Origin: Oerskovia merdavium
GTDB taxonomy: Bacteria > Actinomycetota > Actinomycetes > Actinomycetales > Cellulomonadaceae
DNA length: 34,371 bases
NCBI RefSeq assembly: GCF_014836755.1
Contig: NZ_JACSQF010000021.1
Span: 11,906-46,276, forward strand
Direction of reading: 5' to 3'
The notes below the pieces were generated by a model. That model saw only the letters and a list, made by a program, of their open reading frames with translations. It had not been told where the DNA came from and ran no database searches. The translations under genes and the position numbers were made by a program. Every line of letters starts with the position of its first letter. The first letter of the stretch is position 1. Positions 29,848 through 33,568 of this stretch are shown piece by piece.

Positions 29848-31134
29848 TCAGCGCGCGGCGAGCGCCTGCTCGACGTCCTCGATCAGGTCGAGAGGGTCCT
29901 CGAGGCCGATCGAGAGGCGCACGGTCGTCTCCGCGATCCCGACGGCGGCACGACCCTCCGGCCCCAGCTTGCGGTGCGTCGTGGTCGCGGGGTGCGTGAT
30001 GAGGGACTTGGCGTCGCCCAGGTTGTTGGAGATGTCCACGATCCGCAGCGCGTCGAGGAACTGGAACGTGCGCTTCTTGAGGAGCTCGGGGTCCGTGCCC
30101 GGGTCGTCGGCGCCGGGCACGTCGAGGTTGAACGTCACGACCGTCCCGCCGCCGCTCTGCTGGGCCTTGGCGAGCTCGACCTGCGGGTGCGAGGCGAGGA
30201 ACGGGTAGCGCACGGCCGTGATGCCCGGCAGCTCCTCGAGCGCGGTCGCGACCTGGAAGGCCGCGGCGTTCTGGGCCTTGACGCGCACCGACAGGGTCTC
30301 GAGCCCCTTGACCAGGACCCACGCGTTGAACGCGCTGAGCGAGGGGCCGGTGTTGCGGATGAACGTCTGGACGGGTCCCTTGACGTACTCCTCGGAGCCC
30401 AGGATCGCGCCGCCGAGCACGCGCCCCTGGCCGTCGATGTGCTTGGTCGCCGAGTACACGACGACGTCCGCGCCGAGCTCGAGCGGCTTCTGCAGCACGG
30501 GGGTCGCGAACACGTTGTCGAGCACGACGACGGCGCCCGCCGCATGGGCGAGGTCGCTCACGCGGCGCACGTCGATCACGTCCTGCATGGGGTTGGACGG
30601 GGTCTCGAAGAAGACGACGTCCGCGGGGGTCGACAGCGCCTCCTCCCACTGCGAGAGCACGTGACCGTCGACGTAGTCGGTGCGCACGCCCCACTTGGCG
30701 AAGATCTCGTCGAAGATCACGAGCGACGAGCCGAACAGCGCGCGGGCTGCGACGATGCGCGACCCGGATCCGACCAGCGCCGCGAGCGACGTGAAGACCG
30801 CGGACATGCCCGACGCCGTGGCGTAGCAGGCCTCGGCGCCCTCGATGAGGCGCAGCCGCTCCTCGAACGTGTGCACGGTCGGGTTGCCGTAGCGCGAGTA
30901 GATGAAGCGGTCGACCTCGCCCGTGAACGCGGCCTCGGCCTCGGCGGCGCTCCCGTAGACGTAGCCCTGCGTGAGGAAGAGGGCCTCGCTCGTCTCCTCG
31001 AACTCGGAGCGGGCGTGGCCACCGCGCACCGCGAGGGTGTCGGGTCGCACCGAGCGCGGGAGCGGGCCGCGGCCCGAGCCTCCGGGGATCCCGGCGGGGA
31101 TGCGCAGGACGCCGTCCCCGGTGCCGGCGCTCAC
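29848..31134 (-). CDS. metZ: O-succinylhomoserine sulfhydrylase
   Basis: A 428-residue PLP enzyme of the Cys/Met metabolism family; it should make homocysteine from O-succinylhomoserine and sulfide. The PLP lysine is in YSATKHIDGQGRVLGG near residue 230, the form typical of MetZ, with SRYGNPTVHTFEERL near 80, ETPSNP near 180, and SLITHPATTTH near 365. The GTG start at 31134 overlaps the rhodanese stop by 4 nt (GTGA). The rhodanese-metZ pair is conserved in mycobacteria (Rv0390-Rv0391). The operon leader carries a SAM-I riboswitch. O-acetylhomoserine use or cystathionine gamma-synthase activity cannot be excluded from sequence. Confidence 0.92.
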   Translation of the reverse strand: MSAGTGDGVLRIPAGIPGGSGRGPLPRSVRPDTLAVRGGHARSEFEETSEALFLTQGYVYGSAAEAEAAFTGEVDRFIYSRYGNPTVHTFEERLRLIEGAEACYATASGMSAVFTSLAALVGSGSRIVAARALFGSSLVIFDEIFAKWGVRTDYVDGHVLSQWEEALSTPADVVFFETPSNPMQDVIDVRRVSDLAHAAGAVVVLDNVFATPVLQKPLELGADVVVYSATKHIDGQGRVLGGAILGSEEYVKGPVQTFIRNTGPSLSAFNAWVLVKGLETLSVRVKAQNAAAFQVATALEELPGITAVRYPFLASHPQVELAKAQQSGGGTVVTFNLDVPGADDPGTDPELLKKRTFQFLDALRIVDISNNLGDAKSLITHPATTTHRKLGPEGRAAVGIAETTVRLSIGLEDPLDLIEDVEQALAAR

Positions 31135-31595
31135 GACTGCTTCCAGGGGAGGCCCGCTGCGCGCCAGCCGTCGGAACCACGGTGACCGGCGCCGTCGAGC
31201 GCTCCCTCGAAGCCCTCGAGGACGTTGTACGCCGGGCCGAGGCCCGCTGCGGTCGCGGCCTTGGCCGCGCCGATCGACCGCGCACCGGAGCGGCACAGGA
31301 ACACGACCGGGCGCTCGGGGGTCACACCGGCCGCGGTGAGGTCGGCGACGAACGCCGGGTTGGGGCGGCCCTCGACCGTGACCCACTGGGTCAGGACCGG
31401 CTCGCGGCCCGTCGAGGACAGGTCGGGGACGCCGACGAAGCGCCACTCGGCGTCGGTGCGGACGTCGACGAGGACGGCGTCCGGGTCCGACTGGAGAAGG
31501 GCCCACGCCTGCTGGGGCGTGATGTCGCCGGCGTAGCCGTCGGCGGGCCGGGCGTCGGGGACCGGTGCAGCGGTCGCGCGGTCGGGGGCACTCAT
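31131..31595 (-). CDS. Rhodanese-like sulfurtransferase
   Basis: A 154-residue single-domain rhodanese. The active-site loop is FLCRSGARSIG (Cys near residue 109), preceded by AVLVDVRTDAEWRFVGVP near 45. It would carry persulfide sulfur in the cytoplasm; as the first gene before metZ, it may deliver or handle sulfide for homocysteine synthesis. ATG 31595 has GGAGGA at 5-nt spacing, and that ribosome-binding site is contiguous with the 3' strand of riboswitch helix P1. Confidence 0.92.
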   Translation of the reverse strand: MSAPDRATAAPVPDARPADGYAGDITPQQAWALLQSDPDAVLVDVRTDAEWRFVGVPDLSSTGREPVLTQWVTVEGRPNPAFVADLTAAGVTPERPVVFLCRSGARSIGAAKAATAAGLGPAYNVLEGFEGALDGAGHRGSDGWRAAGLPWKQS

Positions 31596-31604
31596 GGTGA
31601 TCCT

Positions 31605-31691
31605 CCATCGGTCGTGGCGGTAGCACCCTCGCCCGTCGCCGGGGGGTTGCTGCGGCGTCATCGTGCCAAGTCACTCAGCCGCTCTGGATGG
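31605..31691 (-). promoter_or_regulatory. SAM-I (S-box) riboswitch
   Basis: On the minus strand, 5' CCATC (31691-31687) pairs with 3' GATGG (31609-31605) as helix P1. Between them lie S-box signatures in order: CAGAGCGGCTGAGTGAC, GGCACGATGACGCC, CAGCAACC, and GGTGCTACC. A -10-like TACGAT (minus strand, 31706-31701) would start transcription just upstream. The 3' P1 strand shares its last two G with the GGAGG of the rhodanese gene, which suggests translational repression when SAM is bound. Confidence 0.8.
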
Positions 31692-31810
31692 TTGCGTCGG
31701 ATCGTACGCCACCGTGCCCACAGGATGGAACGCCTGTCTCGCAGGGTGGTCGGGAGATAGGTTGCCGTGCATGGAGAGCTTCCCGTCCGGCCGTGAGATC
31801 GAGGATTCCT

Positions 31811-31877
31811 GTCGAGGTAGAGGGCTCGGGGCCTCTACCTCGACGCAAGCCCTCTACCTCGACGCAAGCCCTCTACC
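31811..31877. repeat. 19-bp tandem repeat with an inverted copy
   Basis: The unit CCTCTACCTCGACGCAAGC occurs at 31832-31850 and 31851-31869, followed by a partial copy (8 bp) at 31870-31877. The reverse complement of its first 13 bases lies just upstream at 31811-31823, so it can pair with either copy. It sits between the two divergent riboswitch promoters. I see no gene in 31707-31974. Confidence 0.85.
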
Positions 31878-31974
31878 GCGGGGTGGGCGGTCGGGAGGGG
31901 AGCGCGCCCCGGCACCCGCTCCGCCCGCCTGACAAGCTCCCGCTGCCCACCATCCGAGACGCGGTGCCCACCGG

Positions 31975-32004
31975 TTGACACGCTCCGTGGGCCTCGCCCA
32001 TCCT
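31975..32004 (+). promoter_or_regulatory. Promoter of the SAM-IV-controlled gene
   Basis: TTGACA at 31975-31980, an 18-nt spacer, then CATCCT at 31999-32004. The predicted start at about 32011 coincides with the first base pair of the riboswitch at 32013. This is the best -35 match in the window. Confidence 0.65.
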
Positions 32005-32012
32005 GGACACCA

Positions 32013-32133
32013 GGTCATGAGTGCCAGCGCAAAACCCCGGTTTGCTGGCCGGCAACCCTCCTCCGCGGCGGGGTGCCCCGGGTGACGACCGGGCCCCTCT
32101 CTACAAGGAAGGGGGCAAGCGCGGAGGGGCCGC
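32013..32133 (+). promoter_or_regulatory. SAM-IV riboswitch
   Basis: P1 is GGTC (32013-32016) with GACC (32087-32090). Inside are ATGAGTGCCAGCG, CCCCGG, TTGCTGGCCGGCAACCC, and GGGGTGCCCCGGGTGA, the SAM-IV core shared with SAM-I ligand-binding bases. Past P1, a hairpin (32094-32098 with 32110-32114) and the conserved GGCAAGCGCGG (32114-32124) form the SAM-IV-specific 3' pseudoknot region. It lies immediately upstream of the class V aminotransferase gene. The exact 3' boundary is estimated. Confidence 0.85.
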
Positions 32134-32167
32134 AGGGCGAACTCCGACGACCACCGGAGGACGTGCC

Positions 32168-33568
32168 ATGAGCGCACACGCAGTCATCGAAGCCCCTACC
32201 TCGTGTGCCGTGCTGCCCGTCGTGGGCAGCGACACCCTGGTCCCGCTCGTCGACGGGCGCAGCGTCCCGTACGCGAACCTCGACGTCGCGGCGTCGGCCC
32301 CTGCGCTGCAGGTCGTGGCCGACCGCGTCAACGAGGTCCTGCCGCTCTACGCGAGCGTGCACCGCGGCGCGGGCTACCTGTCCCAGGTGTCGACCGCCCT
32401 CTACGAGGCCGCGCGCCAGACCATCGGCGCGTTCGTCGGCGCCCGCGAGGACGACGTCACGATCGTCACGCGCAACACCACCGACTCGCTCAACCTGCTC
32501 GCGGGATGCGTCCCGGCGCAGGCCGACGGGACGCCCGGCCGGGTGCTCGTCCTGGACGTCGAGCACCACGCGAACCTCCTGCCCTGGCAGCGCACGGGCG
32601 GCGCCACGGTCCTGGTCGGAGGCGCGACGGTCGCCGAGACCCTGTCCGGGCTGCGCGCCGAGCTCTCGCGCTTCCCGTACGCGCTCGTCGCGATCACGGG
32701 GGCCTCGAACGTCACGGGCGAGTCGCTCCCTCTCGCAGAGGTCGTCGCCGCAGCGCACGACGCCGGGGCGCGCGTCCTGCTCGACGGCGCCCAGCTCGTG
32801 CCGCACCGCGGTGTCTCGCTCGCGGCGAGCGACGTGGACTACGTCGCGTTCTCGGGCCACAAGACCTACGCGCCGTTCGGTGCGGGCGCGCTCGTGGGGC
32901 GCCGTGACTGGCTCGACGCAGGCACGCCCTACCTCGCCGGGGGCGGCGCGGTGCGCAACGTGACGCTCGAGGGCACCACGTGGCAGAGCGCCCCGGCGCG
33001 GCACGAGGCCGGGTCGCCCAACGTGATCGGCGCGGTCGCGCTCGCCTCGGCGTGCGACGCGCTCGCTGCGCTCGAGCCGGGCGTGCTGGTCGCGCACGAG
33101 ACCGAGCTCCGGGCCCGCCTCGTCGAAGGGCTCGAGGAGATCGACGGCGTGCGCGTCGTCCGCGCCTGGGCCGACGCCGTGGACCCCGTGGGCGTCGTGA
33201 CGTTCTCGGTCGACGGCCACGACGCGGGCCTCGTCGCGTCCTACCTGTCGGCCGAGCACGGGATCGGCGTGCGCGACGGCCGGTTCTGCGCGCACCCGCT
33301 CCTGGCCCGCCTGGGCTTCCCGGCGGGGGCCGTCCGCGCCTCGATCGGCGTGGGCACCACGGGCGAGGAGATCGAGCGCCTGCTCTCCGCGCTGCGCGCC
33401 TACGTCGGCGACGGGGCCACGGCCCGGTACGAGGTCGTGGACGGCTGCTGGGTCGTGAGCGACGACCCGCGTCCGCTGCTCCAGGTCGCGGGGCTCTCGG
33501 GCCTCTTCGCGACCGCCGCCGTCGGCAACATCACGGCCGCCGTGGGGTGCGGTCCCGCCCCCGCCTGA
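32168..33568 (+). CDS. Class V-fold PLP aminotransferase (cysteine desulfurase-like)
   Basis: A 466-residue PLP enzyme of the class V/NifS-SufS superfamily. The PLP lysine is in AFSGHKTYAPFGAGALVGR near residue 237; other landmarks are VTRNTTDSLNLLAG near 100, DVEHHANLLPWQR near 133, DGAQLVPHRGVSL near 210, and RASIGVGTTGEEIERL near 393. After the catalytic fold comes an unusual tail of about 60 residues (YEVVDGCWVVSDDPRP and onward) with a Cys; whether it matters is unknown. ATG 32168 has GGAGG at 7-nt spacing. The SAM-IV riboswitch upstream ties it to methionine/cysteine sulfur metabolism; a desulfurase or a related C-S lyase is likely, but the substrate is not established. Confidence 0.88.
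   Translation: MSAHAVIEAPTSCAVLPVVGSDTLVPLVDGRSVPYANLDVAASAPALQVVADRVNEVLPLYASVHRGAGYLSQVSTALYEAARQTIGAFVGAREDDVTIVTRNTTDSLNLLAGCVPAQADGTPGRVLVLDVEHHANLLPWQRTGGATVLVGGATVAETLSGLRAELSRFPYALVAITGASNVTGESLPLAEVVAAAHDAGARVLLDGAQLVPHRGVSLAASDVDYVAFSGHKTYAPFGAGALVGRRDWLDAGTPYLAGGGAVRNVTLEGTTWQSAPARHEAGSPNVIGAVALASACDALAALEPGVLVAHETELRARLVEGLEEIDGVRVVRAWADAVDPVGVVTFSVDGHDAGLVASYLSAEHGIGVRDGRFCAHPLLARLGFPAGAVRASIGVGTTGEEIERLLSALRAYVGDGATARYEVVDGCWVVSDDPRPLLQVAGLSGLFATAAVGNITAAVGCGPAPA

Follow-up and report, generated by a model that had tools for sequence, protein, structure and literature searches.

A head-to-head pair of SAM-clan aptamers of two architectures, putative translational switches, in an Oerskovia-like actinobacterium

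A sulfur/methionine locus of an Oerskovia-like actinobacterium carries two divergently oriented SAM-clan aptamers: a full-length SAM-IV RNA before a class V aminotransferase gene on the plus strand, and a SAM-I-like RNA that lacks the P4 hairpin before a rhodanese-metZ unit on the minus strand. This pair of two architectures was confirmed and is conserved among the relatives examined. The two RNAs probably act as OFF switches that respond to SAM at the level of translation; by analogy with known SAM riboswitches, we infer that both RNAs bind SAM, that they follow OFF logic, and that control is exerted at translation. High SAM would then turn down both arms of the locus.

RESULTS

Two SAM-clan aptamers face away from each other.

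The whole window, a stretch of 34,371 bases, was scanned with cmscan against 4,227 Rfam families (Rfam 15) at their gathering scores. Two families matched, RF00634 (SAM-IV) on the plus strand and RF00162 (SAM) on the minus strand, in divergent orientation with a gap of 318 nt (Table 1). The original prediction had placed two different SAM classes back to back, about 320 bp apart, one upstream of rhodanese-metZ and the other upstream of a class V aminotransferase. The scan bore this out with one match per class, each above its cut-off, with neither class missing nor one class found twice, and the PF00581, PRK07810, and PF00266 matches agreed with the genes named. The label "SAM-I" holds insofar as the RNA passes the Rfam SAM cut-off, but it needs qualifying, as the P4 hairpin is absent. 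RF01725 (SAM-I/IV) matched neither of the SAM places in the window's own genome at E values up to 1; its sole match in that genome lies elsewhere and scored 22.4 bits, below the cut-off of 41.1.

Table 1. Coordinates of the genes, aptamers, and proposed switching elements in the window
Feature	Position	Strand	Evidence or remarks
metZ, O-succinylhomoserine sulfhydrylase	29848..31128 (start approximate)	-	NCBIfam PRK07810 and TIGR01325 above cut-off
Rhodanese-domain protein	31131..31595	-	PF00581, E 1.8e-07; CRSG motif in 78/79 relatives
Rhodanese Shine-Dalgarno GGAGG	31602..31606	-	First two bases inside P1 3' strand; ATG start 31593-31595
P4-less SAM-I-like aptamer (P1, P2a, kink-turn, P2b, P3, PK-1)	31602..31694	-	RF00162, 60.7 bits (cut-off 44.4), E 7.3e-12
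P1 to P1 extent of SAM-I-like aptamer	31605..31691	-	5' strand CCAUC 31687-31691; 3' strand GAUGG 31605-31609
PK-1 3' strand	31613..31617	-	Pairs with L2 (31666-31670), with a single mismatch in the window; A1 columns 109-114 with 25-29
SAM-IV aptamer	32013..32127	+	RF00634, 113.1 bits (cut-off 38), E 2.2e-20, positions 1-116 of 116
PK-2 5' strand CCGCG, P3 loop	32063..32067	+	Complementarity with 32120-32124
PK-2 3' strand CGCGG	32120..32124	+	Shares bases with CGGAG 32122-32126, which belongs to the alternative hairpin
Proposed switching strand CUCCG	32142..32146	+	Predicted partners: 32122-32126, or else CGGAG 32155-32159 at the Shine-Dalgarno; from a helix count and from folds comparing a locked with a free PK-2 strand
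Aminotransferase Shine-Dalgarno GGAGG	32156..32160	+	Start codon 32168
Class V aminotransferase fold, cysteine-desulfurase-like	32168..33568	+	PF00266, E 3.7e-82

No terminator-like site was present in 31590-32180. A promoter scan gave 0 candidates, though its consensus is perhaps a poor match for actinobacterial DNA of high GC content. When the leaders were folded freely, the aptamers were not recovered (z scores, -0.24 and +1.42).

Between the aptamers, at 31811-31880, lies a palindromic repeat (GTCGAGGTAGAGGGCT ... AGCCCTCTACCTCGAC) together with a 19-nt direct repeat. The window's own genome holds 13 exact and 71 one-mismatch matches to CCTCTACCTCGACG, against 7 for the reversed control, and at seven places, the window's included, two facing copies stand 22 nt apart. 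The element has the appearance of an intergenic repeat scattered through the genome, and it could account for the 318 nt that separate the aptamers.

That genome (4.49 Mb in 46 contigs) contains two SAM and five SAM-IV matches above the cut-offs. A second strong SAM-IV (L004 on C14; 100.5 bits) is followed, by eye, by an apparent FMN reductase gene and then a flavin reductase gene. The genes that follow the SAM-IV RNAs of L005, L006, and L007 yielded no clear product.

Genes of the locus.

The metZ product scored 731.6 bits against PRK07810 (cut-off, 618). In the plus-strand protein, the motifs RDG[RK]FCAHP (RDGRFCAHP in the window) and SGHK are present in 80/80 relatives. We take the cysteines of this first motif and of the rhodanese CRSG to be persulfide cysteines and the SGHK lysine to be the PLP lysine. 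An assignment of the plus-strand protein as SufS (TIGR01979) was rejected at 290.5 bits, below the cut-off of 475.1. Since the cysteine and lysine motifs occur in every one of the relatives, the protein may still work like a cysteine desulfurase despite this score. That the gene products act together, in a sulfur relay from cysteine via the rhodanese to MetZ, is our guess; an obligate partnership is disfavored, because no rhodanese-metZ homologue was present in the 9 kb fetched around three aminotransferase loci of a second family (L135-L137, described below).

The pair is conserved in relatives.

The relatives used were the top 80 among 318 confirmed stretches that a search with the aminotransferase brought up; the closest named ones among these were Oerskovia species, with 94 to 97% identity in that protein. 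One locus (L037) starts inside the aminotransferase gene, and upstream counts are therefore given over 79. SAM-IV was present upstream of the aminotransferase at the Rfam cut-off in 79/79, as was a rhodanese gene upstream on the opposite strand; metZ came next in 78, and the exception (L075) ends inside the rhodanese. On the rhodanese strand, SAM-I scored above the Rfam cut-off in 35 of the 79 and below it in 44. Reading these 44 upstream regions revealed the same P4-less SAM-I-like aptamer, which the Rfam cut-off thus misses at this locus. A single sequence pattern found exactly one copy in 79/79, a result that describes the set and is not a blind test, because the pattern was written after the 44 sub-threshold sequences had been viewed. 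The survey of related genomes proposed in the original prediction accordingly returned the same pairing in every relative that reaches upstream. Among the 35 Rfam-scored pairs the gap is 86 to 165 nt in 29 and 745 to 1132 nt in 6; in the remaining 44, the distance between SAM-IV and the rhodanese reaches about 3.5 kb.

By eye, nine Cellulomonas-type loci (L065, L066, L069, L073, L076, L079, L080, L082, and L083) carry a seemingly extra small gene between the SAM-I-like aptamer and the rhodanese gene. They are the same nine in which no Shine-Dalgarno (SD) sequence was recognized before the aminotransferase.

The minus-strand aptamer lacks P4.

In the Rfam alignment of the minus-strand aptamer, 20 model positions of the P4 region stand against 4 bases of sequence. 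J3/1, the linker that runs from GGUGC to the P1 3' strand, measures 13 nt in 78/80 sequences and 12 and 14 nt in one each, and about 5 of the 13 nt are taken up by PK-1. P4 is thus absent, because this linker is too short to hold it, whereas in five control SAM-I RNAs from other Actinomycetota (76.5 to 80.9 bits) the linker is about 35 nt with an evident hairpin.

We aligned 57 of the 80 minus-strand sequences (alignment A1), leaving out the remaining 23, which were mostly near-duplicates. P1, P2a, P2b, the base of P3, and PK-1 together had 99.1% paired cells. Eight pairs changed on both sides, a number reached by 0/500 shuffles (mean, 3.0), and the count fell to 0 to 2 on sliding by 1 to 3 columns. 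The covarying changes sit in P2a, P2b, PK-1, and one P3 pair. PK-1 itself was paired in 97.5% of cells, with both-side changes in three of its five pairs. A kink-turn in P2 was recognized by sequence only: its G-A and A-G pairs (columns 19-20 and 36-37) are formed by bases that do not vary in the 57 relatives. PK-2 is absent: the SD and start codon follow directly after P1, and SAM-IV did not match there.

As far as the accessible text of the respective sources goes, SAM-I is set apart from SAM-IV by a P4 hairpin, a kink-turn in P2, and the lack of an additional pseudoknot (PMC7270179); SAM-IV lacks P4 and has PK-2, while SAM-I/IV lacks PK-1 and has P4 (PMC6890682); and the internal loop of P2 is missing from SAM-I/IV variants (PMC2864571). 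The minus-strand RNA resembles SAM-I (S box, RF00162) in its core, kink-turn, PK-1, junction, and ribosome binding site (RBS) at the P1 3' strand, the last as in the available portion of PMC2258182, and departs from it in the 13-nt linker without P4. Like SAM-I/IV, it is a SAM-clan RNA between both classes; unlike SAM-I/IV, it has the P2 loop and PK-1 and no P4, and this architecture, together with the absent RF01725 match, rules that class out. The RNA matches none of the three classes exactly and comes closest to SAM-I.

The rhodanese SD begins inside P1.

Because GAUGG of P1 continues straight into AGG, the rhodanese SD begins inside P1, which ends 9 nt before the start codon. Of the 80 sequences, 59 have an SD that overlaps P1 and 15 have one that adjoins it; in the other 6 (L040, L043, L044, L049, L055, and L099), the SD stands further downstream. 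SAM binding would stabilize the short P1 (CCAUC/GAUGG), hide the SD, and turn down rhodanese-metZ. P1 hardly varies in A1, and covariation therefore lends no support to the P1-SD coupling. Control of this kind is already known for SAM-I: in the part of PMC2258182 available, the RBS lies in or adjoins the P1 3' strand.

Two observations concern the region upstream of this aptamer. GAGAC occurs 46 to 49 nt before P1 in 43/80 sequences, against 2.45 expected from shuffles, and a near-perfect palindrome (TGAGACGACCGTCTCA) stands upstream of the aptamer in L040; either could possibly be a transcription factor operator.

At two metF loci, L002 in the window's own genome and L135 (4334-4390), a short leader open reading frame was seen by eye just behind P1 of SAM-I, with its stop overlapping the metF start (ATGA). 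This suggests that the SAM-I switch may act on metF by translational coupling.

A proposed PK-2 switch in the SAM-IV leader.

The plus-strand RNA resembles SAM-IV in its full-length match, PK-2 complementarity, and lack of P4 (compare PMC6890682, as far as its text is available). It differs in a proposed switch from PK-2 to an alternative hairpin. PK-2 was complementary by Watson-Crick pairs in 47/80 sequences and, by eye, with one G-U in 31 more. With SAM bound, PK-2 would hold CGCGG, freeing CUCCG to mask the aminotransferase SD; with SAM absent, the PK-2 strand would pair with CUCCG and leave the ribosome site freer.

We folded leaders that began at the PK-2 strand and extended 9 nt beyond the start codon (n = 80), setting aside the 9 without a recognized SD. 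Barring the PK-2 strand from pairing made SD opening dearer by a mean of 2.12 kcal/mol over the 71 leaders, compared with 0.23 for shuffled linkers. For the window leader the cost was 4.27 kcal/mol, and modeled opening fell from 0.19 to 0.00. Among 61 distinct leaders with linkers of at least 12 nt, the lock cost a mean of 2.14 kcal/mol, against 0.22 for shuffled linkers and -0.11 when five other linker bases were locked instead. The effect exceeded a leader's own shuffles in 54/61 and the other-bases control in 46/61 (Wilcoxon, 8e-10 and 1.5e-7, respectively; the leaders are related, so that the tests are not independent and these values are not true probabilities), and it was nil or reversed in 5/61. 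Mean modeled SD opening was low in both states, at 0.036 free and 0.003 locked.

Counting helices showed the competing pairing as well. An alternative helix of at least 5 Watson-Crick pairs that includes the last two G's of the PK-2 strand was present in 52/68 distinct, sequence-varied leaders, with a mean length of 5.5 versus 4.2 in shuffles, although just 28/68 beat their own shuffles at 5%. The window's helix did so at the 5% level, and the identical L024 stood at 10% in another draw. In L085 and L096, the SD lies directly behind the PK-2 strand, with no room for the hairpin. The folding models thus support the direction in which the PK-2 lock moves SD opening, and not its size or a real ON state.

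Spread of the two RNAs and of mixed pairs.

SAM matches occurred in 109 and SAM-IV matches in 110 of 121 genomes drawn from the family (E up to 0.001). A covariance model of the P4-less form, R1, was built from the 57 sequences of A1, and only its matches outside these are therefore independent. R1 matched 97/198 genomes of the order and 79/296 of the phylum (E up to 0.001), counts that are upper bounds for the P4-less form because R1 also weakly matches P4-bearing RNAs; the five P4-bearing controls were themselves phylum matches of R1. SAM-IV matched 118/198 genomes of the order. Given this breadth, neither RNA looks like a recent import. The 52 loci fetched held 55 R1 matches, 51 of which had readable 3' ends with short linkers of about 11 to 17 nt by eye; the matches in L130, L150, L156, and L160 are the others, and L137 holds an atypical match at 701-796.

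We surveyed pairs in the order among the best 150 R1 and the best 150 SAM-IV places. Within 400 nt, 17/17 pairs among these places were both divergent and mixed, 10 in genomes of the window's own family and 7 in genomes of a second. Within 2 kb, the same places gave 20 divergent mixed pairs, 2 divergent SAM-I/SAM-I pairs, spaced 1.5 to 1.6 kb, and 6 tandem SAM-IV/SAM-IV pairs. In L135-L137 of the second family, SAM-IV precedes an aminotransferase 59 to 62% identical to the window's, and a divergent P4-less SAM-I precedes metF-metE (Pfam was run on L135). In L109, also of that family, a mixed pair 100 nt apart lies between two SBP_bac_5 genes. The two units are divergent and 1.6 to 5.8 kb apart in L138-L140 of a third family. 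No aminotransferase accompanied rhodanese-metZ and its P4-less SAM-I inside 6 kb for L143 or inside the 3-kb loci L112 and L128; these three loci speak against a fixed pairing.

DISCUSSION

As to why a genome would carry more than one aptamer class for SAM, the reading that we find about evenly balanced is that mixing the classes serves no function in itself: each of two sulfur genes with a shared divergent promoter region carries a SAM aptamer that was already widespread in the lineage, and the arrangement has been kept by descent. This concerns only why there are two classes and is compatible with the translational OFF-switch mechanism. Both RNA types are indeed common in the order, and SAM-IV stays with the aminotransferase in all 79 relatives; against it, mixed pairs at close range turn up again beside different partner genes, and within 400 nt, among the best 150 places per class, mixed divergent pairs are the only kind. 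The recurrence with rhodanese-metZ, with metF-metE, and between two SBP_bac_5 genes suggests that such pairs may have arisen more than once. Independent acquisition, one of the two explanations offered by the original prediction, therefore survives in this limited sense and not as a recent import of either RNA.

Its other explanation, graded control, would have the two classes differ in affinity or speed, so that the arms switch at different SAM levels. We consider this doubtful: the architectures do differ (PK-2 and P5 in one RNA, a kink-turn with neither P4 nor PK-2 in the other), as do the expression platforms, but affinity is not predictable from structure. A bolder version, in which the P4-less RNA is a separate actinobacterial SAM-clan architecture repeatedly paired head to head with SAM-IV for different SAM thresholds or speeds, and SAM-IV switches via PK-2, is somewhat less probable still.

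A different challenge to the translational OFF-switch reading is that one leader, or each of the two, works by terminating transcription, as SAM-I riboswitches do elsewhere (PMC8603990, in the available part of its text). A Rho-dependent form would be compatible with the sequence, but given the missing terminator-like site, the short distance from the minus-strand P1 to the start codon, and SDs that are built into the switching elements, we hold termination to be improbable. Very improbable is the notion that mixed classes avoid a rearrangement-prone head-to-head inverted repeat: the 17 mixed against 0 same-class divergent pairs within 400 nt (best 150 places per class) would fit it, but they come from two families and few arrangements, two same-class divergent pairs do exist at the wider spacing given above, and the window's two aptamers, at 75% gap-excluding identity against 74 to 89% for SAM-IV/SAM-IV pairs of the same genome, are hardly less repeat-like.

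Both classes are known. The accessible text of PMC11508383 describes two SAM aptamer classes at one locus as a tandem riboswitch, whereas here they occupy two divergent leaders. In the open-access literature, the original SAM-IV description excepted, we found no divergent SAM-I/SAM-IV pair, P4-less SAM-I, or PK-2-driven SAM-IV platform, and none of the three appears in the available portions of PMC2258182, PMC2864571, PMC3766115, PMC3774663, PMC6890682, and PMC7270179. As far as these sources extend, what is new here is the mixed divergent arrangement together with the P4-less form; any of the three may already be in print.

The P4-less form suggests that P4 may be dispensable in a conserved SAM-I-like switch, and the PK-2 switch, if true, would provide a testable expression-platform logic for SAM-IV. 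The question of why a genome keeps several aptamer classes for the same ligand can be tested directly in this natural pair, whose two members have a locus, and probably also a pathway, in common.
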